Virus record (IMG/VR): IMGVR_UViG_3300029263_000344
Span: 1-32,357 of that record
Length of the DNA stretch: 32,357 bases
Reading direction: 5' to 3' (one strand)
Source: a virus
Shown here: piece after piece, positions 12,501 to 27,986 of the stretch
Position numbering within the stretch: the stretch's first letter is position 1
How the letters are laid out: the number at the start of each line of letters is the position of its first letter
Notes under the pieces: model-generated
Databases searched by the model: none
Told to the model about the DNA's origin: nothing
The model's input: only the letters and a program-made list of their open reading frames with translations
Position numbers and translations under genes: made by a program

Positions 12501-15500
12501 CCCACAAAACTTACACACCCTAATGTTTCATCACAACACCATTCAGTGACTAATGGACAACAAGGGTAATTTGTTTGTGCGTTTACACAATCCTGTATAG
12601 ATATAGAACAATTAAAGTTATAAGGGTTTAAATCACACGTACAACTAACTACACTATCACAACAAAATCTACAAGCTTGTTGACAATCACTTTGACTTGC
12701 AAATCCTAACGCTGTACCAGTTGAGTATGGTGTGGATGTACCTCCTTGACCAAAAACTAAATTATCTGTCCAACTAATAAAAGGTGCTGTTGTTTGCCAT
12801 GCCTGTATCACACCTTCTTGAAAACAGTTAGATGTTGTTGCTGACTGACCAGCGTTAGTATCACAAAACCATAGTCCTGGAGTTGTACAATCACATTGGT
12901 TGGTGTTTTGGAAGCAGTCAAAAGCTGAGGAATGTTCTGGGAATAATCCATTAGGGTTATTTCCTACAAACTGACAAGTACCTAATGTGGTTGCTACATC
13001 ACATGCCCATTTACAGTTAGTGACACAATCACTTAAATTGGTATAGGCCGCTATACTATATAATATGTCCCCAGGAAAAACTTCAATACACCCTAGACCA
13101 TTTGTACCTGGTATTCCAGGGTTTAAAGAACTACACCAATCACTATCGTCACAATGAAATTTACTTCCAAGTGTTGAGCAGCAATCTAAATTAACTGGGG
13201 GTGGTAGTAGTATTGCTTGTTGGCAGGCCCATAGACTAAAAAATCCATACCAAGTGGACGTATTTGTGGTTAAACCGTTTATAACATCTTGTAACATAAC
13301 ACAAGCCGTAAAGTCGTCCGTTGGGTCTGCTGGTGTTGCATTTTCGTCACAATAACAACCTGATTTACAATGGTCTTGACAAGTACTAGCTGTGTAACAA
13401 TTTAATGCTGCTTCTGAACCAAATACATAAGAACAAGGTATTGGGTTTTGGACACAACCGTCTATATAATCACAACTATATGTGTCAGCTGATGGTGCCG
13501 AACATGGGTCACAACCTCCTGTAGTAGCACCACTAGGTGTGCTCCCACAACTTATCCACGCGTTTGGTATCCCATTAGGTGCATCTGGTCCCTCTGGAAC
13601 AAAGTAGTTACAATCGTAAAATCCTGGTGGTGTCCCTGTAAATGGGTTACTATATTGAGGTAAGTCACAATAATAACAACATGTACTAGGTGTACCACCT
13701 GGGTAGGATACATAGTCGTATAAAGTATAATCGCCACCTAAAGATACAAATACTTCTTGGTCGTTACCTTGACCACCCGTAAGTGGGTCACACGCACAAT
13801 CACAAGTTATTTCATCTGATACACACCCAGTTGGGTTATCTGCCACACACTGTGCCATAGTCCCATATATTGGTCCTAATGGAGTTGGTGGTGGATTACC
13901 ACCAACAACAGCAATATAGACACAAGGCCACCAAGGCCATGATGGGTCATATAAACCAGACATTGGGTCAAATATTTGTGCAGATTCGTCACATTCTATA
14001 TCACAACAACCTGTTGCTATACAACAAGCTGAAAAAGATTCGTAAGGTCCTCCAGGTGACCAACCATAACCACTAGGTAAAGCAACTGGGTTTGGCCAAT
14101 TGATACACTGACCATAACTTGTACCATCAGTCATATTTTCTAAACAATCAACACCACCCTCGGTTGGGCAGTTATCCTCACAATCTACTGCGTTAACAAA
14201 ACTTCCAAGGGGGTAGGAAAAATTAGAAAAATTAGGGTTAGCTCCAAATCCACTTAGTGGTACCAAAGCTGGGTCCACGTACCAATCAGATTCCCATGCT
14301 GGTAGTGGTGTTGGACACGGAGCTAAATTTTGACATGCTGTAGCTGACCCACTTAAACAAACCCAACATTCTGTTAAGGGTGGTTGACACCAATTACAAC
14401 AATCACCAGAAGTTGTGTACTGACCACAAGCATTGGTGTAACATGGTACACAAGCTGAACTACCTGGGAACCCGGTCCCACCACTACATGGTTGGCTCCA
14501 TGGGTCATAACAATCCCACCCACAAGGTCCTGGTATACCACTATTATTTCCTGGTGCTGTTTGACAAGATATTTCATCTGGAAAACCACCACCTACAATC
14601 TCTACGCATCCTTGGTCACAAAAATATTCCCAAGCTGCAAAATTACAACAAGCTGATATTCCTTGTAAAGAAACACCTAACTCACAATCACTTATCCCAT
14701 AATATGGGTCTAAGAATAACTGATTAAGATTTGCTGTTAATAGTGGTGTCGTTAAAACATAATTTGTCATTATAGTATAATAATCTGATGGTGCAACTGT
14801 AAAACATGAAACCTCTGAACAACATGGTGTAGCAGTTGGGGTTGTGCAGGACCACGCTATGGGATTACACCACGATTCACAGTCGGTCATTGATGAAAAT
14901 GTAACAGATAGTGGATAACCTACGTTATTGTATTGTGGGTGAGTATAATCTATTTCTTGACACCCAGGCATATCACAACCGTATTGATTTTCACAATGCC
15001 ACCTATCACTTACCGGACAATTACCATTATTATACGCTGTTACACAACCACCTGGTCCACCATAAAAAGTAAAACTGTCTGGTGTACTACCAGAAATCAT
15101 TTCACAAATATAAGGACCGGGACTTGCTAAATCTTGTGGACACACCCAACTTACACAGCCAACATAATCCCATAAATTAGAATTAGTCATTGCTGTGGGT
15201 ATTATACCTGTTGGTATACTAGTTATTGCTTGATAACAATTACCATCCGGACCATATATAAACTGTCCTTGTGTAAATACTTGTGAGTTATCCCACTGTC
15301 CAGCTATACCCACCGGACCCATAGGTGAGTAAGCGTTAAATACATTATATGGGTCAGCACAAGGTAAAGCACTTCCCGCTGGACAAGAAACACAATCAGG
15401 TGTACAACCTTCAAAAACATGCACATCAGCTCCAGTTGGGTTTAACCAAACTCCTTGGTACATTTGTGATGGCATGACACCAGCAAATGGGTCATTCAAA

Positions 15501-17203
15501 CCACTAGTACTTGTCTGTGTTATACCTAGTTCCGCAACAACTACATAACAGCAACAATCTTGTGGTGATACATCATAAACTATGTCACCTTGTACATAAT
15601 CAACGAAAGGTGACCAATTAGGTGGACTAGCGGGTGATAAAGTACTTATCATTTCTGGTTGGAGGGTGACCCTATTAATAAATTCATCTTTTGTTAAACA
15701 AAACTCACAGGTTTCCTCTGGACACTCAAAACAATCTTCACCACCAAAAGCTAATGAATTTAACCCACAACTAGTAGCAACAAAAATTGTAATTCCGTTT
15801 GGGAAGTCGTAAAAATCTATAGGTGTTTGTCCGTTTGCTGAAGAAATTGTATAACCAGTGTATAGTGCGTCAGCGTTAAATATTGAACCCATCATACCAG
15901 CTGTAATAGTATTTGTTATCGGGTCGACAACATCACCACCAACAGGTAGTGAAACAAATAACTCAAAACCGTTAGGTAAAAAACCTGGAGCTAATGTAGA
16001 TGGAGCATTACTATATGTAGAAAATATACCTACTGTACTATCAGTTATCCCAGTTAATTCAAAACAACCTATGGATGTACCACTATATTGATTTATGTTG
16101 GTACCAGAATCAAGTGGGTAATAGTTTGGTGAACCAAAAACACCGTATGTGCCATGATAAGCTGTAGATGTGAATAATGGTGCTAAGTAAACTGAAGGTA
16201 TCGGGTTAGGACCACTTAAATCTACTTGGTATGGGTCACCTCCTGGTGTACTAGGTGATAGTGGCCCTCCCATTCCAGCACCTGTAGGTGGTGCGGGGGA
16301 ATAAACTTGTGCTAATATTTGGTTATACGTTAAATTAGGCACTGTTATTCTTTGACTTACCGATGTAGGTCCCCATGGACCTTCATGTGTTATTGTTATA
16401 GAGTACTGTGATGCCACCACATATTCATAATCACTAGTAAGTGAGGGATATTGTAAATCTTCACAACAAGGGTACCCATTACCGTTAAGTGGTACAGAAC
16501 AATCACACTCACCCCAACTTATAGTGTATGGTGAGTTTTGGAACGCATTATACGAACCAAAATCTGTTGTATTATACACTTGAATTTTCATCCCATTACC
16601 TGTTGTGTTAGCAGTAAAAACAAAATTTGAGAATGTTTGTTGTTGGTCTACTCTGCCGTCCCAAACACTGTAATGACCAATATCGTTATAATCTTGTGTT
16701 AGTGTTAGTGGTATATTATATAACACACTATCTAGTGGGTCCAAACATTCACATATAGCAATACTTTCATCCCAAAAAGCATTTATGCCTTGTGATGACA
16801 ATGTTTGGTTTACGTTGGTGTTGGTTACATCATATATGGTACTTAATTCATTATAGCTATTTTGGTAAAAGGTACTGCCCGAAGTTAAAATAAGTCCTTT
16901 AAATAATACGTAATTATATCCCTCTGGGTTGGTACAATTAGTGGGGCTAATACTTAATGGTGCGTCCCATAATATCACACATGGTTGTGTTGGTGAGCAA
17001 TCTCTTAGTTCGTTTGGAAAACTAGACATCACACCACTTTCTAAAGCGTTAACCACTTCTGACCCAGTGGAATCATACATTGTCACACCAGAACAATTAG
17101 TACTTAGATTTATTGGGTAGAAGTTTGTTCCTCCGGTACAAGGTAGAGACCAGGTACTTGCTGACGCTGTGGTTCTTCTTATGGTAAACTTTTGTACGTC
17201 CAT
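9527..17203 (-). CDS. Giant Cys-rich modular tail-region protein (2558 aa)
   Basis: A single uninterrupted 7.7-kb ORF, the largest in the window, starting ATG three bases after the previous stop. It is rich in Cys (about one residue in ten where counted), Gly, Pro, Ser, Thr, Asn, Tyr and Trp and very poor in Lys/Arg until the last ~100 residues. Two repeat types alternate. One is a Cys module, roughly aromatic-x-C, G-x-C, then Y/F-x-S/T followed by D/E-C-x(3)-C, seen many times (e.g. LSDCVTNCKWAC, STCQDHCKSGC). The other has W, Y..G..V/I, CC(C)Y and a closing W..C; copies lie at about residues 530-594, 637-683, 1698-1767, 2303-2382 and 2418-2531. The second type recalls the aromatic spacing of small carbohydrate-binding modules (family 5/12-like), but this is weak. 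No signal peptide or membrane segment is visible. I infer a long fibre or virion surface protein that binds host or environmental polymers; no named family is claimed. Confidence 0.85.
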   Translation of the reverse strand: MDVQKFTIRRTTASASTWSLPCTGGTNFYPINLSTNCSGVTMYDSTGSEVVNALESGVMSSFPNELRDCSPTQPCVILWDAPLSISPTNCTNPEGYNYVLFKGLILTSGSTFYQNSYNELSTIYDVTNTNVNQTLSSQGINAFWDESIAICECLDPLDSVLYNIPLTLTQDYNDIGHYSVWDGRVDQQQTFSNFVFTANTTGNGMKIQVYNTTDFGSYNAFQNSPYTISWGECDCSVPLNGNGYPCCEDLQYPSLTSDYEYVVASQYSITITHEGPWGPTSVSQRITVPNLTYNQILAQVYSPAPPTGAGMGGPLSPSTPGGDPYQVDLSGPNPIPSVYLAPLFTSTAYHGTYGVFGSPNYYPLDSGTNINQYSGTSIGCFELTGITDSTVGIFSTYSNAPSTLAPGFLPNGFELFVSLPVGGDVVDPITNTITAGMMGSIFNADALYTGYTISSANGQTPIDFYDFPNGITIFVATSCGLNSLAFGGEDCFECPEETCEFCLTKDEFINRVTLQPEMISTLSPASPPNWSPFVDYVQGDIVYDVSPQDCCCYVVVAELGITQTSTSGLNDPFAGVMPSQMYQGVWLNPTGADVHVFEGCTPDCVSCPAGSALPCADPYNVFNAYSPMGPVGIAGQWDNSQVFTQGQFIYGPDGNCYQAITSIPTGIIPTAMTNSNLWDYVGCVSWVCPQDLASPGPYICEMISGSTPDSFTFYGGPGGCVTAYNNGNCPVSDRWHCENQYGCDMPGCQEIDYTHPQYNNVGYPLSVTFSSMTDCESWCNPIAWSCTTPTATPCCSEVSCFTVAPSDYYTIMTNYVLTTPLLTANLNQLFLDPYYGISDCELGVSLQGISACCNFAAWEYFCDQGCVEIVGGGFPDEISCQTAPGNNSGIPGPCGWDCYDPWSQPCSGGTGFPGSSACVPCYTNACGQYTTSGDCCNWCQPPLTECWVCLSGSATACQNLAPCPTPLPAWESDWYVDPALVPLSGFGANPNFSNFSYPLGSFVNAVDCEDNCPTEGGVDCLENMTDGTSYGQCINWPNPVALPSGYGWSPGGPYESFSACCIATGCCDIECDESAQIFDPMSGLYDPSWPWWPCVYIAVVGGNPPPTPLGPIYGTMAQCVADNPTGCVSDEITCDCACDPLTGGQGNDQEVFVSLGGDYTLYDYVSYPGGTPSTCCYYCDLPQYSNPFTGTPPGFYDCNYFVPEGPDAPNGIPNAWISCGSTPSGATTGGCDPCSAPSADTYSCDYIDGCVQNPIPCSYVFGSEAALNCYTASTCQDHCKSGCYCDENATPADPTDDFTACVMLQDVINGLTTNTSTWYGFFSLWACQQAILLPPPVNLDCCSTLGSKFHCDDSDWCSSLNPGIPGTNGLGCIEVFPGDILYSIAAYTNLSDCVTNCKWACDVATTLGTCQFVGNNPNGLFPEHSSAFDCFQNTNQCDCTTPGLWFCDTNAGQSATTSNCFQEGVIQAWQTTAPFISWTDNLVFGQGGTSTPYSTGTALGFASQSDCQQACRFCCDSVVSCTCDLNPYNFNCSISIQDCVNAQTNYPCCPLVTEWCCDETLGCVSFVGTMPAGCIHGPFGNPADCQDECNFICGECTPDLGPTFQPDPCQCSLITTPFYTAAPPYTNCTAYNNLLDCQNNSYSLGGIGSNNTTCCPCQDCQLAGSVTFPVINMGGGWALHTVGINLPIAGSIIQSDPWVSTINYLSGDTVTHCGSGGTCCCYVNVVDAYSTLTQGLYNPSEWYNLYSNSLANSLVTEYGDPLVWIPCDTSCPTTATTSMYECLPGQPIYTFCDSATMEFPINPVGTTWPGNQGINAGTNTWAWCLIFFDWIVQTYPPNTPFDGKKAVSPNGVNPACPNYTTQYGGNGGIYLTRPSCHITNTMYNAANGCSGIFIDWNDAIAQLNLVNTNLSLPPTFNTGMSVDDAKVEMFSYGETTSHPLYAGTSGCQCSQTGPCYCQPCIGGANCIWSDLSLCNIAANATPCCVPPVTGFWVCDTGNPNQSTGVCPCIYDPLAVVGYNSEPLCTGDTLTCCYEPPVNPVLWTCIDTSGSTETLAQSQCGLNKIYIGNKANDTQALNGIVATVTSNPADYYNQFGLYYWSNTGGGLCNASPCPPSPNYSYTQCEDSNGYCLNYTTYLDIVGPAASLFNANGFTSWGDVIDHLNSVVITNSWSLAFAYTDTVGTCFVKMGINEGTSWSGGDFWVTDGVTFCRCYCECHCEEDINGLYASQLLCEQSINSCCGTIIEPSWDCDPHSCLCLDPGTGLGFYTSANGGLAQCNIDCCPTILGCDDCDQLLQLPGAPIYMGSYNSSTTYQINECVFDPNDNDCCYCCAPFVVGPALAVSSSLQTLLFNASSPAYCKDGQGDPSAIVGINIGGGMWIPCGVNNLNQICTNVISPVCESCDITLVNDLPTPVTFPWNPGYGPPGQIYLSFNIGECIYDVDPLGTGDNCCWCCACEYGWDGNNCIEPIPIANGPLARRMGETPQKNVEFGNASKSMNPPACGIGHITNNDPNTGTYYVNASSWNSIWAPCGGTSTNQACGGTSSSSSSISPVSSIHA

Positions 17204-17206
17204 ATA

Positions 17207-18076
17207 TTAATTTGTGATATATTCATAAAATTTTATTGGTCCGTTAACCGTTTCACCTAATGGTGCTAACAAAATACCAGTCATACCCGCAACGGAATTA
17301 TATGGATGTATGGTGTAGTTATATTTTGGTGTCGTATTACCTATTTCTATATTTAAAACAACTTGGTAATAAAAAAAGTCTTGGAAGTTGTAACTTCCTT
17401 GTATGGGTGTTGGTTCTTGATTTAGCATCCTCATAACACTACCTGTTTTTGCGTTAAAAAACTTACAAGTCATATAAAAAGTGTTACCGGTAAACAATTC
17501 TCTACCTTTTAACCATTGTAGGTAGTAATTTTCTGTCTGACCTACTGGTCCAGAAGACGCGGAAAAAGCTGGTACGTAAACATCATAAACTGGTGTTGAT
17601 ATACCTTCACTACGTTGGGCCCAATATTCTTCTGGGTCTTCGGATGGAATAATCACAACACTTTTTCTTCTACAATTATTACTAGGCATTATAGTGGAGA
17701 ACATTAGTTTTTGTTCTTCTCTTACCGGGGAATCGAAAAAATCGAATTTAAAAAAACTTTTAGTAAATGACTTTGCATCTCTAGATAGGTCTACATTCTT
17801 ATAATCTAAAATGTTAAAGTTGTTAACGTAAGTTGAGTTTACACCATCCCAAAAGTCAAATTCATAGTATATTTCAAAATCTGGTGCGTAGTTAGGTGTA
17901 TATCTAGTAGTCTCATAGTCTTGTATGTAATTTATATTATTTTGTAACTCAATCTCATCATGCATTTCTAATAGTTGTTCACGACCTAGTTCGTCAAATA
18001 TTTGACCTAACGGTATAGTGACTTTTTTATCACTAAGAGATGCTTTTATTTGTATTCTATTCACAGACATCGACAA
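17207..18076 (-). CDS. Putative tail/baseplate structural protein (289 aa)
   Basis: A 289-residue ORF whose start overlaps the end of the 598-residue gene by 20 bases, suggesting coupled translation. The N-terminus is charged and helical (IFDELGREQLLEMHDEIELQ). The rest is beta-rich with many Tyr/Phe/Asn residues, has a KSFFKFDFFDSP stretch, and ends in YEYITN. I see no enzyme motif, signal peptide or membrane segment, and no family I can name. Its place between two structural genes of the same operon implies a virion component. Confidence 0.75.
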   Translation of the reverse strand: MSMSVNRIQIKASLSDKKVTIPLGQIFDELGREQLLEMHDEIELQNNINYIQDYETTRYTPNYAPDFEIYYEFDFWDGVNSTYVNNFNILDYKNVDLSRDAKSFTKSFFKFDFFDSPVREEQKLMFSTIMPSNNCRRKSVVIIPSEDPEEYWAQRSEGISTPVYDVYVPAFSASSGPVGQTENYYLQWLKGRELFTGNTFYMTCKFFNAKTGSVMRMLNQEPTPIQGSYNFQDFFYYQVVLNIEIGNTTPKYNYTIHPYNSVAGMTGILLAPLGETVNGPIKFYEYITN

Positions 18077-19853
18077 ATTCTGAAACTACATTTATACTAC
18101 TAGAGCTATAACCAAACATAATAGGGTCTATTTTAAATTCTAAATTTAAATATGGGTAGTGTGCATCATTTAAATATGGATAATTAACACCATTATCACC
18201 ATCTTCAAAATAATCTAAAGGTAGAATTGGTCTCCACCTAAACGTCCCTTCTGATAAAGAATAAGTAGCGTACGGTGGTGTTGTAAATAGACTGTCTTCA
18301 TAACTTACAGTGGTGGATAATTTACGTATAGGTATACGATTATGTGGTTTGTACTTATATATTGATTTTATGTAGTCTGATGAACCTCCTGGATATTCAT
18401 ACATAGCGTCTCTATTAAATTGTAATGAGTGTTGGATTTCTGAAATAATCCTTTCTTTTAATTCGAATGGGTTATATTCTACAAACGCTCCTCGATATGT
18501 CGTCCCACTTAATGGTAATGGGTCTACCCCGTTTGTTGTATTTTGAAATAGGTTAGTTGGGTTAACATTGTTATCAACAAATGGGTCTATGTTACCATTT
18601 TTTCTAAAGTTCCATTCCCACCCATATCCTGTTGGTGAGTTGGCTGGTGCTTCATAGTGCCACATAAGATTTCTATTGACTTGGAAAATCGTTAAGTACA
18701 AGTCTGTTAGTGGTCTGTTTAAGTTGTCTTGGTAGTCGTCCACATCTATGTCTAGGTTTGTGTTCCATAAAAAAGATTTAAAGTCTTGTGTGATTACCGT
18801 TTTATCACCGTACCCATCTGGTGTTTTTTTAGATTTGTACACCCTACCTTTTTTATTATATATACCATTTTCAAAACCTGTCCTATCCAAACTGTAGTCT
18901 GATGAATTAGTGATTAGTCTATGAACGTGAGTACAGTATTGTGACCTAGTTTCACCAGTATTATTTATACTGATTATTCTTTGTATAACACATACTGAAT
19001 CTTGTGGTACTTCAGTTAAGTCAACACCTTTTGTATATACGTTGATAACATATTCTTCTGAGTTTACGTATTCGTTACCCAAAAAATCTACTTTAAATAA
19101 GTTCTGGGTTGTTGATACTAGTGGTCCGTTAATCGTTATATCAGTAATAAGATTTGTTAATCCCATGGGAACGATACTTGGGTTACTTTGTAACTCTATA
19201 AATTCCCCAGCATTTACTCCATGTGGTGATGCTGTAGTTATCCTTAAAACTTGTTTACCTTCTACAGTAGTTAGTTGGATACGAGCTGGAATACCGTCAC
19301 CACTACGAAAATTTATACCAATGGTACTACCAGTGTATCTCACATAAAACTCCATCCCTTGATTTTTATCACATTCAGAAACATAGGAAATGTATGTCAC
19401 CCAATTATCTTGGTAGGCGTTAACACTACTGTATTGTGAACTATTACTAGTGCCGTAACGATAAGGAGGCATAAAAGTAAATAAGTCAGATGGTGGTAAA
19501 CCTACACAGGGTGGTCCACTAAATGGTGTTACTACTGGTAATATAGAGATTGGGTCTGGACAACCAATAAAAGGTGGTGTAAAATACATATAATTTAATA
19601 TACGGTTTTCGTCTGTTTGTCCGGTTATGATGTTATTATATAAAACATCTATCTTACCATATGGTCTATATGTTGTAGAATAGTCTCTCTCAAAATCGAA
19701 CTGGTCTCTTAGATTTAAAACCAAGTTTCTATCACCTTCTATCATAGTACGTTGTTCACTACTCAAAAAAGGTTGTAGACTCATATCTTTATTCTGAGAA
19801 CCAGCAAATTTAGATTCACCCCTTACAATTCTTATATTTTTTTTATTACTCAT
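18057..19853 (-). CDS. Putative tail/baseplate structural protein (598 aa)
   Basis: A 598-residue ORF. Its ATG shares one base with the upstream stop (TAATG junction), so translation is probably coupled to the 1130-residue gene. It ends with TAG, showing that amber is a true stop here. Residues about 200-260 contain ITTASPHGVNAGEFIEL, a beta-strand pattern I associate with phage fibre and baseplate proteins in which an HG..aG..v turn recurs. The remainder is Tyr/Asn/Pro-rich structural sequence without membrane segments. I cannot assign a specific T4 counterpart; by position it follows the gp6-like and 1130-residue proteins, so a baseplate or tail-tip role is inferred. Confidence 0.8.
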   Translation of the reverse strand: MSNKKNIRIVRGESKFAGSQNKDMSLQPFLSSEQRTMIEGDRNLVLNLRDQFDFERDYSTTYRPYGKIDVLYNNIITGQTDENRILNYMYFTPPFIGCPDPISILPVVTPFSGPPCVGLPPSDLFTFMPPYRYGTSNSSQYSSVNAYQDNWVTYISYVSECDKNQGMEFYVRYTGSTIGINFRSGDGIPARIQLTTVEGKQVLRITTASPHGVNAGEFIELQSNPSIVPMGLTNLITDITINGPLVSTTQNLFKVDFLGNEYVNSEEYVINVYTKGVDLTEVPQDSVCVIQRIISINNTGETRSQYCTHVHRLITNSSDYSLDRTGFENGIYNKKGRVYKSKKTPDGYGDKTVITQDFKSFLWNTNLDIDVDDYQDNLNRPLTDLYLTIFQVNRNLMWHYEAPANSPTGYGWEWNFRKNGNIDPFVDNNVNPTNLFQNTTNGVDPLPLSGTTYRGAFVEYNPFELKERIISEIQHSLQFNRDAMYEYPGGSSDYIKSIYKYKPHNRIPIRKLSTTVSYEDSLFTTPPYATYSLSEGTFRWRPILPLDYFEDGDNGVNYPYLNDAHYPYLNLEFKIDPIMFGYSSSSINVVSEFVDVCE

Positions 19854-22800
19854 TATATAACGGTGTTGGATAGTTCTTCGTCAACATAAAGTCTAATAAA
19901 TCGGTTATAAGCTGTTTCTCCTGGTCTTAGTCCAAAGTAATAGAATAGTGGTTGAGAAAATAACATTGATGGGCCTGTTACTTCTGACATCGGTGGGTAT
20001 GCGTCTCCTACTGTACCTGGTTCAGCAAAACCATTTAAAGCTCCTACCGTGTTTTGGTAGTCACCGGAATTAATAACTACTGTCCCACCCGTACTTGTCC
20101 AACTATATGAAGCTGATTGATACCCACCCCTTGTGTACTGCCAATCATTATTTTCATTACCAAAACCACTAGACCCGTTTACCCTCCAAATGTAAAAAGG
20201 GATTATTTGTGAACTACCAGATAATTCGTAAGAAACACAATCTATTAGGTCAGCTCCTGTCATAATGGTAGGTGTACTAGCGGTAAATAAATGAGGTCTC
20301 CATTGTATATCATACCCAGCGTTAACATTTATTGCGTAGTCCACATAAGTACCTGTTTCATTTATGTTGTTTGGTATTTCGTATTCTATATCTCCATCAG
20401 TCACCAAAAGTGGTGGTCCTGCCGGTACACTACAATCACAAGATGTGGTTGATACGTTAGTTTCATAACCAAAAACACCCAACATAGAATTTTGCATTAG
20501 TGCTTGTGCCATATCACCACCTATTTCTTTTTCAGGTCTAGCGAATAAATCCCCTAACGACATATTTGGTTGTGACGCTTTAAGATTGTAAGCGTCTGAA
20601 ACTAGGTCAGTTATGTCTTGGAATGTGGTACTACCTATTTGGTCTGTTACGGAACAATCCTCAGCAAATTTTTCATCTAAACATATTTGTTGTATACATT
20701 GATTTCTAGAACCCATATCTACAATTGTGGTTGGGAATAGTATGTGTCTTTCCATATCTCCTGATGAATGGTAATCACTACTACTTGAACCACCCCTTAC
20801 ACCATCGTCATCAGCTATAAATTTACCTGTAGTTGCTGATAGGTATCTAAATGGTGTGCACCTATAATAAAAAGTATGTTCAGATGGATGTAAATAAACT
20901 ACTTTTTTACAATATCTGGTACCAGAGGTATCGTAGGTGTCAGCGGCAGCATCATAAGATAATTTAGCTCTGAACTGGAATTGGTATAGAAATCCGTTTA
21001 CCCAAGCATTTTCCCAAAAATAATTCATTACACCATCACATAAAGCTGAAAATATTTTTTCTCTTCTGTACCACTCCCTAATTAGTACATCATTTGTGTT
21101 AAAGTCCAAACAGGCAGCATTTAAACACATACATTTTACATAACATCCACCTCCGGCTGCCATGTCATTACCTGCGGCTGTAGAATTACCGAATATGTCA
21201 GGTGGTGGGTTACTTGTAGTTGAGTCGTACCCAAAACTATCTGGACAGCAAACCACATCTCTTTCAACACCAAAAATATTAGTTGATACTCCACAGTCGT
21301 CGTTAGTCCAATTATAATTGTCATAAGCATTTTGCATGTCACTATTTGGGTTGGTCCTACACATGCAACTTTCACATTCTGGGTATTTTTTCTGCCTTAG
21401 AGTAAATAAGGTGAATCCCATTGGTATCCCAAAAGTTTTACATTGTGGTTGACACGTATTGGTCCACGATAATTGACCACACAAAGTAGGTGTGTTTTGC
21501 ATATTTAAGAGACTAGCAAGCCACCCCCATCCATTTATCAAATAATAAAGCAAACAAATAGCAGCAAAAATTATAAGAAATGGAATTAGTATTATTCCAA
21601 GTATACTAGCAATAAGACCAAACACTACGGATAACATTCTATAAATAACGTAAGTAAATAATAGAATAAACTGATTTAAAATTATAATACCTTTAAGTCT
21701 TTTTACAGCACTATTGACTGGGAAAAACATTGCTGAAGTTGAGCATTGTTGGTCTTGTTCCGGTAATATTTCTTTAATACCTAAAAATTGTCTCCTTCCG
21801 TTATGTTTAACGTGGTCATGGAATTGGGAAAATGTATATACCCTATTAAAGGACATGTCGTAGAATAAATCTGTAGCTGGTGGTATAAGATTTGTTTGAG
21901 CCCATGGGTGGTAATCGTGATATTCTAAAGAAAAACAATATGGGTCGTAGAATTTACTATTACCTTCCCCATCTTTTAAATTTTGACCTATCTCGGGCCA
22001 ATCACCATCCGTATCTGATGCGGTCCCAAATTCTCTAATTTGTGGTACTAAGTGTGAACCCCTTCTTCTTTGCCTAGCAGTACCTGAGGATTGTTCTGGT
22101 CTTACCCTAAATCTACATCTAGTCCTTGTCGCAACCCCTTTTGTTGGGTCGTTTGATTTTACTAAATTACCGAACTCGTCAGTAATTACGTGGTCTAGAT
22201 TCATAGGCATATGAACTAGAAAAGCACCTGTCTCATCAATCACCCTACCACCATCATCAAAATAAAATCTTTCCATTACCGGCACTTGTCCACCACCCAT
22301 AGCGGAACCATCATAAGGCCAAGGTGGAAAAGCTTTCGCATCTTCTTTAAAGAATGGTGTATACCTAATACAATCAATTATTCCGGGTTGCGTAACTAAA
22401 CTACACAATTCACCCATATGTCTTTTTGGTCTACATCTTTTATTGACTGAGTCTTTATCTGTGTCGGTAGCTGTACTACCCATAAAGACAGCTGTTGGTT
22501 GTATTTTAATCCCTGAGTTATTTAAGTCAAAATCTACTCTTGTTATTGCTGCGTTACAAAATTCTTCATCACCCCAAAAAGGTCTAACATCTATAGATTT
22601 TTGTTGTCCTACAATTTGTGGTAAATTGTCTAACGCTGAGTCATCCCTAAATCTAGTACCGTCAAATTTAGAGTCTGGGAATCCTAATTGTTTAAAATCT
22701 TCAGGCAACATAGAAAAACAACCTATATCACTCATATCAACATCCATAACTAGGGTTTGGTCACCAACAGGCACACCATATATCATAAAATCACCAGACT

Positions 22801-23245
22801 CGTTAGTTTTTACTGTAAATTTGTAGTACTTGTCATAAACGTATTGAACTTCTTGTTTATCTAAAACGTCTTCTATTGTTGGGAAGGTACCTACAGCGAC
22901 ATGACAATCGAAGTTTTGTTTGGAACTTAACAGATTAAACCTTTTACCATCTACTGTGGTATCAAAGGGTTGTGTGTAGGGGTATAACAACCTAATTACT
23001 TCATTTTCTTCGTCTTCACTATCTATAGGTAGAAATACAGAAACTTTAGCGTTTGGTATCCCATAACCCCCATTTGAGGTTACTCTACCCACCACAACAC
23101 CAAAATCAGCACACATTCTTGTGTAGACATCATTTTGTGAAAGCGATAGGCTTAATATTTCTAATAAGTCAAAGTCTTGGTTTAGATTTAAACTAATTTT
23201 TTGGTCTTTACCGACTTGTGTCCTTACTCTAATAGATTTGGCCAT
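19853..23245 (-). CDS. Baseplate-region virion protein with carboxypeptidase-regulatory-like domain and membrane-type segments (1130 aa)
   Basis: A 1130-residue ORF with its ATG after the window's longest gap. Residues about 50-170 look like a carboxypeptidase-regulatory or prealbumin-type beta sandwich: VVGRVTSNGGYGIPNAKVSV, then TNESGDFMIYGVPVGDQTLV. Residues about 519-580 form a long hydrophobic stretch able to span a membrane at least twice (QFILLFTYVIYRML, then SILGIILIPFLIIFAAICLL, then an aromatic NGWGWLASLL). It is followed by a Cys-rich region, residues about 589-712 (CESCMC, VVCCPDS, CYVKCMCLNAAC). The C-terminal part resumes as beta-rich structural sequence. A virion protein with helices of this kind may insert into the host envelope during DNA entry; that is inference. 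I cannot name a family, and a membrane role for the assembled protein is unproven. Confidence 0.85.
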   Translation of the reverse strand: MAKSIRVRTQVGKDQKISLNLNQDFDLLEILSLSLSQNDVYTRMCADFGVVVGRVTSNGGYGIPNAKVSVFLPIDSEDEENEVIRLLYPYTQPFDTTVDGKRFNLLSSKQNFDCHVAVGTFPTIEDVLDKQEVQYVYDKYYKFTVKTNESGDFMIYGVPVGDQTLVMDVDMSDIGCFSMLPEDFKQLGFPDSKFDGTRFRDDSALDNLPQIVGQQKSIDVRPFWGDEEFCNAAITRVDFDLNNSGIKIQPTAVFMGSTATDTDKDSVNKRCRPKRHMGELCSLVTQPGIIDCIRYTPFFKEDAKAFPPWPYDGSAMGGGQVPVMERFYFDDGGRVIDETGAFLVHMPMNLDHVITDEFGNLVKSNDPTKGVATRTRCRFRVRPEQSSGTARQRRRGSHLVPQIREFGTASDTDGDWPEIGQNLKDGEGNSKFYDPYCFSLEYHDYHPWAQTNLIPPATDLFYDMSFNRVYTFSQFHDHVKHNGRRQFLGIKEILPEQDQQCSTSAMFFPVNSAVKRLKGIIILNQFILLFTYVIYRMLSVVFGLIASILGIILIPFLIIFAAICLLYYLINGWGWLASLLNMQNTPTLCGQLSWTNTCQPQCKTFGIPMGFTLFTLRQKKYPECESCMCRTNPNSDMQNAYDNYNWTNDDCGVSTNIFGVERDVVCCPDSFGYDSTTSNPPPDIFGNSTAAGNDMAAGGGCYVKCMCLNAACLDFNTNDVLIREWYRREKIFSALCDGVMNYFWENAWVNGFLYQFQFRAKLSYDAAADTYDTSGTRYCKKVVYLHPSEHTFYYRCTPFRYLSATTGKFIADDDGVRGGSSSSDYHSSGDMERHILFPTTIVDMGSRNQCIQQICLDEKFAEDCSVTDQIGSTTFQDITDLVSDAYNLKASQPNMSLGDLFARPEKEIGGDMAQALMQNSMLGVFGYETNVSTTSCDCSVPAGPPLLVTDGDIEYEIPNNINETGTYVDYAINVNAGYDIQWRPHLFTASTPTIMTGADLIDCVSYELSGSSQIIPFYIWRVNGSSGFGNENNDWQYTRGGYQSASYSWTSTGGTVVINSGDYQNTVGALNGFAEPGTVGDAYPPMSEVTGPSMLFSQPLFYYFGLRPGETAYNRFIRLYVDEELSNTVI

Positions 23246-23346: not shown

Positions 23347-25188
23347 TTAGGAGAATGTAGGTTTAGTATTTCTCTTAGTCCTAACCGAGATGTCTTTTTG
23401 GGGTGACATTATCTGTAGTATTTCGTCGGGTTGAGCGAAAATAGTGTCGTCGATTAACCCTATTTGTTTTGTTGTGTTATTACTATATGGTTGTGTACTT
23501 ACGGATTGTGAATATGGGTCACCTACTTGATTGTACACTCTTACATCAACAATATTAACCACACCGTCTTGGTTCATTACTTGTTTTCTTAATTCCCCCA
23601 AAGCTAAATCTTGTCCCATTTCTATTTTATCAGTTTTGAAATATTCTCCAACAATTGAGATTACACTGGTTACAACTTCTGATTGATTGACTCCGTTAGC
23701 TATTATCAAATCTATTTCTAACCTTAAATCTATTACTTTTGCTGACCCAACTATAATATAGTCGTTTATCATTCTATGGTTAGATAGATATGTAGCTATG
23801 TTATTTTTTAATGTAGAACTTACATTAGAAGTTAGAGTACCTCCAGGTGTGTAAGAAAGTACACTTAATTTAATTTTATTCTCTATTTCCGTAGCACTTG
23901 CTTTTGCTGGTGAACCAAAAGAAGAAGGCATCGTTCTTAATTGTGAGACATAATCATTTATTGTTACAGCTCTTTTTTGTGCTGCAAAATTAAAAGAAAT
24001 ATAATTCCTAATTTCATCTTGTGTCATTGGGTCTGCACCACCTATGGCTGATGTTACATTATTTATGGATAAACTGTTAATAACTGATTGGTTAACCTGT
24101 TGACTAGGTCCAGCAACCACAAAATCTATTAACCCAATATTTCTTACAGCTCCAGCACCAATATTAGAAGATTTACCACCACCTACCCTGTACTGGATAA
24201 ATAGGGTACTATTTCCTTTTACGGTATTACCTAAAGCTATATTATTCATGAATTTAGACATATCTAATTTCACACCTTTAGATGTAAACTCATCTAGAAG
24301 GTCTTGTGAGGTTTGATTACCACCACCAAAAGTTAGAAAGAAGAACCCTTCAGGGGTATATTCGGTAATAAATCTTTGGGGTGCTGTTACATACTTACCA
24401 ACCTTAATACCCACATTATCTGGTGGTGAGGAAGGGTCTTCTACAAAAACTTCATTTTCTGCTAAAGCATCAACTTCATACCATTTATTTGCTAATGGTG
24501 ATATAAATTCTGAAGAATTAGGTAGCGATTGGTACCCCACTCCGGGCTTTTGTATTATAGATGTTATTGATATAATATTTTTTTCTGGTAAAAATAATTT
24601 AAAGAATGGTTTATTATTACTATCTAGTATTTCTTTCTTAAATATTTTAGTTGTTCCGTTTACAATAACTTCTCTTTTGGTGATTGTATAATTAATTAGG
24701 TTTCCGTTAGCATCAAAATTAGGTATTTTGGTTCTATTAGGTACTCCTTCCATACTGTATGGTGATGAAAAATCACAATCGTCAACCAATTCAAATATTT
24801 GTCCACCACCATTAAACTGGGCTCCGGCTCTTAAAAGACCTAAATATTTAAAATCTTCTTTATCACCTAAAGCTGGTACTACCACAGATAAGTCTCCGAC
24901 GGTTACAGAAGGTCTATTACCTGGTACTTTTAAACCGTAGGTTCTAGCTAGATTATATAAAGAACTTCTTTCTTCAGCAAATTGTAAAACTGTCTCCTGA
25001 AATGTTCTATCTATTTGAAAGTTTAGGTTATCTGCTACCGCTGCGTTTAAATCCAAAAACACCGAGTATATGGAAGCATCGTTTGCATTTTGTATTAAGT
25101 CGGGATAGTAGGTATTCGTTAGTCTTAGTAGTTCATTTCTTATCCCTAGGAAATCTCTTTCAGTGTACGCTATTTGTTTTTCCGCCAT
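23347..25188 (-). CDS. Baseplate wedge protein, gp6 / baseplate J-like
   Basis: A 613-residue protein that starts one base after the gp25-like stop. The N-terminus (YTERDFLGIRNELLRLT, then NDASIYSVFLDLNAAVADNL) and the block from about residue 380 (GGADPMTQDEIRNYISFNF, AAQKRAVTINDYVSQL) are the conserved features of T4 gp6 and the wider baseplate J family. The C-terminal part keeps the family's two alpha/beta repeats (IDLRLEIDLIIANG, then LGELRKQVMNQDGVVNIVDV). Length is close to T4 gp6 (660). In T4, gp6 dimers form the ring of the baseplate wedge and hold the sheath-side core together with gp25 and gp53. The gp25-gp6 gene pair is the classic contractile-tail arrangement, which supports both calls. 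Confidence 0.93.
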   Translation of the reverse strand: MAEKQIAYTERDFLGIRNELLRLTNTYYPDLIQNANDASIYSVFLDLNAAVADNLNFQIDRTFQETVLQFAEERSSLYNLARTYGLKVPGNRPSVTVGDLSVVVPALGDKEDFKYLGLLRAGAQFNGGGQIFELVDDCDFSSPYSMEGVPNRTKIPNFDANGNLINYTITKREVIVNGTTKIFKKEILDSNNKPFFKLFLPEKNIISITSIIQKPGVGYQSLPNSSEFISPLANKWYEVDALAENEVFVEDPSSPPDNVGIKVGKYVTAPQRFITEYTPEGFFFLTFGGGNQTSQDLLDEFTSKGVKLDMSKFMNNIALGNTVKGNSTLFIQYRVGGGKSSNIGAGAVRNIGLIDFVVAGPSQQVNQSVINSLSINNVTSAIGGADPMTQDEIRNYISFNFAAQKRAVTINDYVSQLRTMPSSFGSPAKASATEIENKIKLSVLSYTPGGTLTSNVSSTLKNNIATYLSNHRMINDYIIVGSAKVIDLRLEIDLIIANGVNQSEVVTSVISIVGEYFKTDKIEMGQDLALGELRKQVMNQDGVVNIVDVRVYNQVGDPYSQSVSTQPYSNNTTKQIGLIDDTIFAQPDEILQIMSPQKDISVRTKRNTKPTFS

Positions 25189-25189
25189 A

Positions 25190-25651
25190 TTATAAATTAA
25201 TTATTACAAAGTCTTTAGTTTGGAATACGTTGTCCCCCGAACTGTAGTCAATCCTTACCCTCATAGAATACTCTTTTTCTGTGACACCAACAAAAGTAAA
25301 ACTATTATCCTCCAAATCAGGAGTATTTATTTCTTCTTTTTCTTCTTGCCTAACATCTTCTGCTGTTTTTACCTCTACTTTAGTGATTACTAAATTAGGT
25401 ATGTACATATCTACAGCTTCTCTTATTTCACTATCTATAGATGTTTTGGTGGCTGAATCCATAGGTTCAAAAATATACCTCATTAAATTTGTACCGAAAT
25501 CAGGTAAAAAATAACGTGTACCTTTTAAAGTTAGTATTAAATGGATTAAATTAGAACGCACCTCACTGTCTGGTGTTTTATTAAGTCCTAGAAAAAATCC
25601 TTCTTGACTATCCGTAAATGGGAATGTTATACCATATCTTTGGTTGGGCAT
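25190..25651 (-). CDS. Baseplate wedge protein, gp25-like (GPW_gp25 family)
   Basis: A 153-residue protein, near the family's usual length (T4 gp25 is 132). Residues about 14-63 show the family signature: a Phe-rich N-terminus with GFFLGLN, a helix (RSNLIHLILTLKGTRYFLPD), then FGTNLMRYIFEPMD. In T4-like tails and related contractile systems gp25 nucleates sheath polymerisation at the baseplate core. The C-terminal half has an acidic stretch (AEDVRQEEKEEINTPDLED) that looks like a lineage-specific insertion before the last strands. It is separated by one base from the gp6-like gene and preceded by a 20-base gap carrying the TATTTATT motif. Confidence 0.93.
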   Translation of the reverse strand: MPNQRYGITFPFTDSQEGFFLGLNKTPDSEVRSNLIHLILTLKGTRYFLPDFGTNLMRYIFEPMDSATKTSIDSEIREAVDMYIPNLVITKVEVKTAEDVRQEEKEEINTPDLEDNSFTFVGVTEKEYSMRVRIDYSSGDNVFQTKDFVIINL

Positions 25652-25661
25652 CTTTTTTTAT

Positions 25662-25669
25662 AATAAATA
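25662..25669 (-). promoter_or_regulatory. Candidate promoter-like motif TATTTATT before the gp25-like gene
   Basis: The coding strand reads GAAGTATTTATTATAAAA, ten bases before the ATG. The 12-mer AAGTATTTATTA is shared exactly with the gap before the helicase gene. This gap marks the switch from DNA-metabolism genes to tail genes, a sensible place for a late promoter. Not demonstrated. Confidence 0.4.
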
Positions 25670-25671
25670 CT

Positions 25672-25911
25672 TCAAAGATTGGTTTGGTTGGTGTTATCAC
25701 CCTTACCTTTTAAATCTTTATTCATTTTTTGGTTTTTTGGTGAGTACGGGCAGTGTTTACATGCGTTACCACAACAGTACCCCCTTTTTTTGTGGTATTG
25801 TTCACTCATAACCATTTTACCTTTTTCCCAATAAAAATCTTCCAATTGTAGTTTTGGTTTTATAAATTCTTTGTGGTGTAGTTCACTAATCCAATCATCT
25901 CTTCTCGTCAT
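25672..25911 (-). CDS. DUF5522-like small Cys-rich protein (79 aa)
   Basis: A 79-residue protein with the block DFYWEKGKMVMSEQYHKKRG followed by YCCGNACKHCPY (Cys at 46, 47, 51 and 54). This matches what I recall of DUF5522, a small Bacteroidota family of unknown function with a Y-H-KRGYCCG-CxHCPY core, probably a metal-binding knuckle. The last ~20 residues are a polar Lys/Asn tail. Its start overlaps the preceding zinc-protein gene by 17 bases, and it ends with TGA. The family's cellular origin supports a Bacteroidota host. Function unknown; its place next to the reductase gene may be incidental. Confidence 0.8.
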   Translation of the reverse strand: MTRRDDWISELHHKEFIKPKLQLEDFYWEKGKMVMSEQYHKKRGYCCGNACKHCPYSPKNQKMNKDLKGKGDNTNQTNL

Positions 25912-26092
25912 TTTCTATTTCTTTTATTTCTTCATTATGTCCACAGTGAGGACATATTATTGAATTATGTACCTTTTTTTCATTTTCTGGTACATTATTA
26001 GAAAACAAATGGTAGTCAGCAATTGACCACCATTTATTACACTTACCACAATTAAAATGGTATAGAATTTCTTTACTGAACTTATGCTTCAT
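25895..26092 (-). CDS. Small zinc-ribbon-like protein (65 aa)
   Basis: A 65-residue ORF overlapping the reductase gene's end by 11 bases and the DUF5522-like gene by 17 bases. It has two CxxC pairs, CGKC (15-18) and CPHC (47-50), spaced like a zinc ribbon, and an acidic/basic C-terminal tail. Zinc ribbons of this size bind nucleic acid or proteins, but nothing here shows which. The tight overlaps on both sides argue that it is translated in series with its neighbours. No named family is claimed. Confidence 0.7.
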   Translation of the reverse strand: MKHKFSKEILYHFNCGKCNKWWSIADYHLFSNNVPENEKKVHNSIICPHCGHNEEIKEIENDEKR

Positions 26093-27986
26093 CCAATTCT
26101 TCTTCTTTTTTTATACTTTTTAAGTCTACGTCTATCTCACAAGTACCACCAGCACAAGCTAATTCACCAGTCAAATTTGTATTATCGTCTAATTCAACTA
26201 CCATACCTAAATCAACGTCTTTGAGTGATTCCATCATTTGGTTGTAATCTTCTTCTGTTATGTCTTCGAACGGTGCTTGTATATACGAACCCCCATTGTA
26301 AGGTAAAACTGATAACCCATTATAAGCTTTCCTATTTTCCCACATCCACTCACCAGCTGCGTCCCATTCGTGTTCTCTTAATGAAATTGTTGCTGAAACA
26401 TTATGAGTGTTTGACCCATTTCTATGTCCAGCTTTTACCCATTCTGTTGCTACTTTTTTAACTCTCTCTAGTAGTTGGAATGGTGACTCAGTTCTCATTA
26501 TCGAACCTTCAGGTGCTTTTTGTGGTATAGATATTACAGCTGTATCGTGTGGTCTAAAATATTCATCCTCAACTAATTCTGGATGGTTTTCGTTTAAATA
26601 AGTGTAAATCGCTTCATTTTTACCTACACGAAGTCTTCTAACATAATAATCATTATGCCATGCATGAATTCCTGATGAAGTACCTAACGTTAATGATGTT
26701 GTTCCTGCAGGTTTAACAGTTGTACATCTAGCTGATTGATTTATCTCTATTAATTTAGATACTCTAGTATTTTCTCTTTTAACTAGACTGGCGGCCTTGG
26801 ACATGTCATAAGTAAGAACTTTACCAGAACCGATACCTGTCATTGATACACCTATCAAGGCGTCTTTTTCAGTTGTTTCTTGCCACACTTCCCTTAAATA
26901 GTGAAATGAGGTATACCCCGCTTGTAGTGTACCTATAAATGCTGCTGTTTTTACTCTTTCGTTTAAATCTTCTTGTGATTCTATATTTGACACGTTTACC
27001 TCACAAAGGTTACAGAATTGATTAGGTCTTAGTGCGATTTCACAACATGGGTTTGTCCCCCAGTCTTTGTCATTATTAAGGTATATACCTGGTTCTCCAG
27101 CTCCTGATAACTCAACTCTTTTCCATAAATCCATAAAGAATTCTTTGGTTATTTTGTGTCTCATTAAGCAGGCTGAGTTGTTAGCTCTACCTCTTTGTGG
27201 GTTTAGTTCCCACCAATTACCAGATTTACACCCAATCATTTGTTCGTCATCAGCACTAAATAAACTAATAAGTGCAGCTCTACGAATACCACCAGCTAAA
27301 ACAGCGTCCGCTATATGACAAACAATATCATGAACTTCAATAGTACTTAGTTGTTCTCCATTTTCTTTTTGGTTTAATAGGCCTTCAATTTTAACTAGAC
27401 ATTCTTTAAGTGGTTGTGGTCCTGGTGCTTTGCCTCCTGATGTGATTAATCTAGCTCCTTTAGGTCTGATATCAGAATAATCGAATTCTACCCTAGAACC
27501 ACCACCATTCATATATGTTTTCATTAAAACTTTAATTGCGTCTGCCCACCCTTCGATTGAGTCACCAATTAAAAATCTTTTCTTTCTCTTTTGGTATGGT
27601 TTTTGAATTACTGGTAGTTTAGCGACGTGATGTCTTTGTACTGAATATCCAACACCTGTTCCACCCAACAATAAAAACATTGTTTCACTAAAAGAATCAA
27701 TATGGTCAATAGGTAGGTACGCACAGTTGTAAATTCTGTTTGGGGATATCTCAATCGGTTTACCACCGAATTGCATACTCCTCATAGATGGTAACACTTT
27801 TTTATCGTATACTAATCTATATTTCTCACCAATCTCATCTTTTAAGTGTGGATATCTTTTTTGGTGCATTTCTTTATTCCTAGTCACCAATTCATCCCAC
27901 GACTCTCTTCTATTTAGTTCTGGTAGGTATTTTGCGTACTTCATGTAGACAGTAATATCCGACAGAATCTTATTTGATACTTCCAT
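26082..27986 (-). CDS. nrdJ: Adenosylcobalamin-dependent ribonucleotide reductase, monomeric class II
   Basis: A 634-residue enzyme that reduces ribonucleotides to deoxyribonucleotides using a cobalamin-generated thiyl radical. The layout matches the monomeric RTPR type: NCAYLPIDHIDSFSETMFLL with redox C88, GGTGVGYSVQ, then TNPCCEI with the thiyl C314 and acid E316, FCNLCEVN with redox partner C325, and PAGTTSLTLGTSSGIHAWHN. A C-terminal CAGGTC pair (C611, C616) would shuttle electrons from thioredoxin-type donors. It is shorter than Lactobacillus RTPR (about 740). No separate small subunit or activase is next to it, as expected for class II. It lies between the helicase and baseplate genes, supplying precursors for phage DNA. 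The host must provide B12. Whether the substrate is di- or triphosphate cannot be told by eye. Confidence 0.93.
   Translation of the reverse strand: MEVSNKILSDITVYMKYAKYLPELNRRESWDELVTRNKEMHQKRYPHLKDEIGEKYRLVYDKKVLPSMRSMQFGGKPIEISPNRIYNCAYLPIDHIDSFSETMFLLLGGTGVGYSVQRHHVAKLPVIQKPYQKRKKRFLIGDSIEGWADAIKVLMKTYMNGGGSRVEFDYSDIRPKGARLITSGGKAPGPQPLKECLVKIEGLLNQKENGEQLSTIEVHDIVCHIADAVLAGGIRRAALISLFSADDEQMIGCKSGNWWELNPQRGRANNSACLMRHKITKEFFMDLWKRVELSGAGEPGIYLNNDKDWGTNPCCEIALRPNQFCNLCEVNVSNIESQEDLNERVKTAAFIGTLQAGYTSFHYLREVWQETTEKDALIGVSMTGIGSGKVLTYDMSKAASLVKRENTRVSKLIEINQSARCTTVKPAGTTSLTLGTSSGIHAWHNDYYVRRLRVGKNEAIYTYLNENHPELVEDEYFRPHDTAVISIPQKAPEGSIMRTESPFQLLERVKKVATEWVKAGHRNGSNTHNVSATISLREHEWDAAGEWMWENRKAYNGLSVLPYNGGSYIQAPFEDITEEDYNQMMESLKDVDLGMVVELDDNTNLTGELACAGGTCEIDVDLKSIKKEEELDEA

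Follow-up and report, generated by a model that had tools for sequence, protein, structure and literature searches.

A conserved membrane-type helix in a large protein encoded beside the baseplate wedge genes of uncultured phages

How contractile-tailed phages bring their DNA across the inner membrane is still poorly understood, and suspicion usually falls on the tape measure protein. In phage T4, the wedge protein encoded after gp6 is gp7, a protein of about 1000 residues that is not known to carry a membrane helix. Tape measure proteins with predicted membrane helices, for which a pore or a reach to the inner membrane has been proposed, are described in the consulted parts of reports on diffocin (PMC10996793) and TP901-1 (PMC5099701), the latter of which presents the role of tail-protein membrane helices at entry as partly disputed. 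Among contractile injection systems, Cis13 of the Anabaena thylakoid system is bound to the baseplate and enters the membrane with a predicted transmembrane helix, and deletion of this helix frees the particles, according to the section of the report used here (PMC8894136). Likewise, CisA is required for Streptomyces contractile injection systems, as stated in the portion drawn on of PMC12237407.

Here, we describe a conserved helix of membrane type that sits elsewhere than in the tape measure protein, namely, in a predicted baseplate operon, across a protein superfamily of uncultured phages. The window, i.e., the whole stretch of DNA that was analyzed, is the 32,357-base IMG/VR virus record IMGVR_UViG_3300029263_000344. 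A preliminary description of the window had proposed a membrane-spanning-type segment within a baseplate-region virion protein, and the segment proved to be real, conserved, and of the kind named. Membrane-active tail proteins are already known; the baseplate wedge module is a new place for one, and no paper assigning a membrane helix to a protein of the phage wedge module was found among the literature searched. The reading that we favor would be a baseplate-associated protein with its helices bundled in a membrane, either that of the target cell at infection or that of the producing cell.

Gene neighborhood, relatives, and host leads

A minus-strand run of genes encodes UvsX-like and DnaB-like proteins and a class II ribonucleotide reductase, followed by a tail module in the order gp25-like protein, gp6-like protein, the 1130-residue protein carrying the helix, and then proteins of 598, 289, and 2558 residues and more (Table 1). 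Among 173 loci put to a neighbor test, 145 had at least 3.6 kb of upstream sequence and 109 had at least 2.5 kb downstream. A gp6 relative was located directly upstream on the same strand in all 145 (54 to 1328 bases from the end of the gp6 match to the family gene; median, 134), and a relative of the 598-residue gene, or its 666-residue counterpart, was located downstream in all 109. The gene is thus fixed beside gp25- and gp6-like wedge genes, suggesting that it belongs to the baseplate module, in line with the region to which the preliminary description had assigned it; location beside gp6 is in itself no proof of a structural role. The ribonucleotide reductase (positions 26082-27986, minus strand) shares 67% identity with the enzyme of Microcystis phage Mel-JY01 and 63% with those of Vibrio and Oceanospirillum phages, which is far closer than the tail genes are, so that exchange between phages is likely.

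Table 1. Coordinates of the features discussed, as positions in the window
Feature	Position	Strand	Basis
1130-aa protein (P0001), carrier of the hydrophobic block	19853..23245	(-)	ORF, ATG start
Predicted hydrophobic helix, residues 519-572, one continuous	21530..21691	(-)	AF2 (90 rows), KD19 3.17, conservation
Small-residue stripe core, residues 539-554	21584..21631	(-)	Alignment columns and periodicity test
Entry motif FPxN...R/K, residues 508-518, conserved, before the helix	21692..21724	(-)	Alignment columns
Aromatic patch GWGW, residues 572-575	21521..21532	(-)	Sequence
Cys-rich segment, residues 589-712, 13 Cys	21110..21481	(-)	Cys positions, alignment columns
Predicted N-terminal beta-sandwich, residues 44-249	22499..23116	(-)	VIA-align fold; weak Pfam PF13620
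gp6-like wedge protein of the baseplate, 613 aa (Baseplate_J), immediately upstream	23347..25188	(-)	PHROG 6, E 6.7e-16; PF04865
gp25-like baseplate wedge protein, 153 aa	25190..25651	(-)	PHROG 261, E 1.1e-16
598-aa protein, uncharacterized, conserved directly downstream	18057..19853	(-)	Homologues in loci

Family loci were defined by match coordinates (a regex search alone gave 55 loci). The scan with the 1130-residue protein itself returned 49 loci, and that with a 26-row profile returned 132 matches, of which the best 80 were used; distant members gave at least 589 IMG/VR matches (80 used), and the most distant member gave 337 (best 80 used, representing 79 loci). These scans overlap in contigs, so that counts from different scans share loci. 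The protein belongs to a superfamily spread over hundreds of contigs of up to 326 kb, with sizes ranging from 1130 to 1885 residues, and the four superfamily members searched had no match among 50,697 phage records. By gp6 and sheath, the closest cultured phages are Mel-JY01 and Flavobacterium phage immuto. When a family profile was set against ORFs of at least 90 residues from Mel-JY01, immuto, and LR756508, one locus apiece, no hit exceeded 1.6% probability; in Mel-JY01 and immuto, the large proteins encoded after gp6 are without such a block. Judged from one locus each, these closest cultured tails seem to lack a relative, which counts against the explanation that we favor below. Mel-JY01 and a 210.6-kb relative each encode a membrane protein with four hydrophobic segments in a similar layout (L051:12716-13849 and G001 24643-26007, respectively).

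One relative lies on the 83.8-kb contig QCKH01000004.1 (L054) of the Prochlorococcus sp. AG-409-L21 single-cell assembly, which is also an IMG/VR virus entry (L222) and whose gene order matches that of the window by ORF lengths. Among 14 Prochlorococcus genomes, that assembly itself was the only one with a match, and a literature search by its assembly code found nothing. The contig may serve as a host lead for this uncultured phage group, or it may derive from a co-sorted free particle.

In the far branch of the superfamily, 73 of 80 loci have a gene for a small membrane protein inserted after gp6 and ahead of the family gene, and 58 of the 73 proteins have a CxxC near the N terminus. In the other two groups, such a small ORF occurs in 4/17 and 3/76 loci, none with CxxC. 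The small proteins (L054:7579-7992; L222-L300) have about 124 to 182 residues, often start with MGCxTC, and are absent from the window branch; the one member searched had no PHROG or Pfam hit above cut-off and no match among phage records. A membrane gene adjoining the family gene in one branch would suit a host-cell membrane protein that is encoded in the tail operon without being part of the tail and that acts in superinfection exclusion, lysis control, or envelope change, and the membership of the 1130-residue protein in the virion is something that we infer. However, such a role appears highly improbable given the strict place of the gene between gp6 and another conserved large gene, the large beta-sandwich fold resembling surface or fiber proteins, and the size of the family proteins, which favors a component of the particle.

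Predicted structure and conservation of the helix

The AF2 model computed with a 90-row alignment (mean pLDDT, 84.4; pTM, 0.83) is mostly beta outside residues 519-572, in agreement with the beta-rich flanks described previously, and these residues form a continuous helix (10-residue mean pLDDT, 87-95 from residue 511 to 570). An AF2 run with 26 close relatives had a pLDDT of 35, and nothing was used from it except the long helix. The stretch had been judged long enough for two helices; AF2 instead gives one of 54 residues, leaving the two-helix reading without support from a method that, however, models no membrane, and the longer blocks of the window branch may form a hairpin.

Residues 44-249 have a predicted transthyretin/CnaB/carboxypeptidase-regulatory-like fold, the VIA-align matches listed including domains of transthyretin, CnaB, and carboxypeptidase D. 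The best of them covers 86 residues with a Z of 10.5 and an rmsd of 2.5, and most have a Z from 10.5 to 7.5 over 78 to 103 residues. In this region, PF13620 (CarboxypepD_reg) scored 17.8 bits compared to a cut-off of 32.3 (E 0.0043), missing the gathering score. For the whole protein, searches of PHROG and NCBIfam found no match, Pfam matches were all below cut-off, and a PDB sequence search found no match for the protein or its 90-row profile. The best Foldseek matches in the PDB were pilins whose query TM-scores did not exceed 0.09, which are too poor to place anything beyond the 44-249 domain; the structural matches listed included no fold of gp7, Cis13, or another baseplate protein, an absence that excludes nothing. 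Among predicted viral structures (BFVD), the only strong match was A0A8S5LA66, an uncharacterized protein of Myoviridae sp. ctPuP5 matched in fold over its full length (E 1.1e-54; 1060 alignment columns; 24% identity). A0A8S5LA66 is a homologue from a named but uncultivated phage; it has 994 residues compared to 1130 here, and the likeness is one of fold.

The strongest 19-residue Kyte-Doolittle window of the protein (KD19) is 3.17, at residue 548. When the protein was shuffled 10,000 times, the value was never reached (maximum, 3.01; mean, 1.71). The longest stretch free of D, E, K, and R spans 66 residues (537-602), compared to at most 60 in 3,000 shuffles. Residues 519-572 are the sole block of such grade among window ORFs of at least 150 residues. 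A chance origin is ruled out by the shuffles, and an artefact or frame error is ruled out by the presence of the block in every relative reaching that region. The preliminary description had located the segment at 21500-21690, which deviates by only a few bases from the mapped positions (21691 for the start of residue 519 and 21506 for the end of residue 580), and its characterization as unbroken holds nearly so, with N524, Q525, and R536 lying inside. As judged from sequence, then, the block is a genuine membrane-grade helix.

The block was kept in all 148 loci that reach residue 620 in a set of 155; among the seven shorter loci, three have it and four end before its position. In a second set, the block was found in 71 of 75 loci, the other four ending at residues 456-508, before the block, and in a third set in 34/34 near-full sequences; the three sets share contigs. 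No homologue lacking hydrophobicity here, the finding named beforehand as refuting the proposed membrane role, was thus encountered among the loci long enough to carry it. Across 18 non-redundant close members, the mean pairwise identity of the helix is 0.39, compared to 0.64 for the whole protein and 0.73 for residues 1-510, making it the least or nearly the least conserved 54-residue stretch of the protein, while its mean hydropathy stays between 1.9 and 2.5 in all 18. Residues 1027-1080 are about as variable (identity, 0.40) and are not hydrophobic by the block test; low identity alone is therefore unremarkable, and it is the combination of low identity with fixed hydropathy that is special. 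Such drift at constant hydropathy is the pattern to be expected where selection would act on hydrophobicity only. Four members of one branch (L171, L172, L175, and L176) have a second strong hydrophobic block near residues 1030-1083, about 480 residues past the first.

Bulky residues (I, L, V, F, M, and W) recur along the helix with a mean spectrum peak at 100 degrees across 110 non-redundant members. Within-block permutation gave p<0.05 in 86 members and p<0.01 in 66, with 24 failing at 0.05, counts that are not independent because the members are related to each other; the same test on other membrane-type segments from the contigs of two relatives was significant in 0 of 15 cases. Gaps in the hydrophobic pattern hold small or uncharged polar residues every three to four positions. 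In the window protein, the stripe core includes S539, G543, A546, and G550, with G or A at 554 in most kin. Across the window branch, the columns are G/Y/S at 532, mostly S/T at 539, G/S/T at 543, mostly A at 546, G/S at 550, mostly A/G or hydrophobic at 554, and C at 564; in the far branch, roughly every third or fourth position is T, C, G, N, or H. The predicted helix is therefore an inside-out amphipathic one, with a small or polar stripe among bulky hydrophobics, the reverse of a soluble coiled coil, in which hydrophobics fill the stripe. This pattern would suit helices packed together with their remaining faces in lipid.

A heptad-like stripe would also be expected of a hydrophobic helix bundle that never meets a membrane and is wrapped by other baseplate proteins as a structural core of the particle, and AF2 places the helix with high confidence in a soluble-type fold. 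Such a core is nonetheless unlikely: bulky hydrophobics occupy the other faces over 36 to 54 residues and the sequence drifts freely, while a buried protein-protein interface is usually the most conserved part of a protein. Moreover, among the proteins of at least 500 residues that the 210.6-kb relative encodes, none but the family protein has a hydrophobic surface block to match, or any membrane-type block (KD19 maximum, 3.32; next, 1.78), a comparison made by protein size and not by assignment of the tape measure gene.

Flanks of the helix and the membrane concerned

Before the helix, the entry motif is nearly fixed (P509 in 110/110 and N511 in 109/110 members). The aromatic patch at the block end is present as described, and W573 is kept in 38 of the 46 rows having a residue at that column. 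The Cys-rich region that follows is confirmed as such, although its supposed CxxC-like clusters reduce to one true CxxC in the whole protein; C624 and C629 are near-invariant within YPxCxxCxC. The downstream 2558-residue protein (9527-17203, minus strand) has 200 cysteines (7.8%) and 20 CxxC, which is very unusual for a phage tail-region protein, and its positional equivalent in the 210.6-kb relative, of 2883 residues, has 7.9% Cys.

An anchor in the membrane of the producing cell, inserted as the protein is made and leaving the Cys-rich half outside, where it would dock or nucleate the baseplate, has the advantage of a natural topology, with one helix between two large folded halves. Such an anchor might stay behind or be carried off in the particle. 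Cys is commoner in the 130-residue stretch following the block than in the one preceding it in every one of the 110 members, as if the C-terminal side were in an oxidizing compartment. However, the second gene downstream encodes a very Cys-rich protein that lacks a membrane block, so that an abundance of Cys does not necessarily indicate a half in the periplasm. K+R is greater before the helix in 23 of 28 window-branch members, again in favor of an anchor, but the bias is reversed in the middle branch, where K+R is greater after the helix in 24 of 39, and positive-inside analysis of the flank charges found no topology common to the family. The small membrane protein gene of the far branch and the working precedents of Cis13 (PMC8894136) and CisA (PMC12237407), as far as the cited sections describe them, also fit an anchor, whereas no signal for release from the membrane was seen. 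On balance, we regard anchoring in the producing cell as somewhat unlikely, but as a rival to be taken seriously.

Tentatively, and with confidence short of even, we propose a baseplate-associated protein whose helices enter the membrane of the target cell at infection. The large beta-rich protein would belong to the baseplate module in a phage with a contractile tail, with bulky hydrophobic faces toward lipid and the small or polar stripe packed on the same helix of neighboring copies, such that the copies around the baseplate could form a helix bundle. The helices would be kept covered until a conformational change of the baseplate on the host, whereupon they would insert into the cell membrane, fixing the tail tip there and sealing or lining the site at which the tube enters. 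From the features above we infer presence in the virion, an oligomer, its release, membrane insertion at infection, and any pore. An anchor or seal is likelier than a DNA channel, because a small tight bundle alone would not pass double-stranded DNA. The one pointer to the target cell is an analogy, namely, such helices in the tail proteins of other systems (as described in the portion consulted of PMC10996793). Against action at infection, insertion from outside would leave folded parts of about 510 and about 560 residues on one side, which a single straight crossing cannot do, so that one 500-residue folded half would have to pass the membrane.

A more specific form of infection-time insertion, which we consider doubtful, is that this large uncultured clade of contractile-tailed phages carries its membrane-crossing device in the baseplate wedge module and not in the tape measure protein. 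Contraction would push one helix per baseplate copy, with its small or polar stripe facing inward, into the inner membrane, where the helices would form a collar or pore round the tube. If true, phages would have a third type of machine for membrane entry, in addition to tape measure proteins and ejection proteins stored in the head.

Comparison with known systems

With T4 gp7, the 1130-residue protein shares its place after gp6 and a similar size. Comparable residue spacing to that of the stripe is found in the synthetic Leu/Ser heptad channel peptides LS2 and LS3. Small residues at fixed helix spacing are also held in common with the glycine zipper of the T6SS effector Tde1, which is unrelated in sequence and which the consulted part of PMC10240207 ties to membrane translocation. 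The contractile sheath gene of the 210.6-kb relative argues against a podovirus with head-stored ejection proteins. Tape measure proteins, which occupy the lumen of the tube, are predominantly helical and have several membrane helices, whereas the 1130-residue protein is encoded after gp6 and, in the AF2 model, is beta-rich with one long helix in place of an alpha-helical coiled-coil rod; a membrane-type hydrophobic segment is the feature shared with them.

The closest working precedent appears to be Cis13. Both belong to contractile-tail systems, with a baseplate-cluster gene and a membrane-type helix (PMC8894136, in the section used), and the helix described here has the length and hydrophobicity of a membrane-spanning one, its link to the baseplate coming from gene order only. 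As presented in that section, Cis13 is tail-fiber-like and cell-encoded, with a C-terminal helix (predicted 122-154); in contrast, the phage-encoded protein has 1130 residues and a central helix with large folded parts on both sides. Were the helix to act in the producing cell, phages would have a counterpart to the injection systems that cyanobacteria anchor in their membranes.
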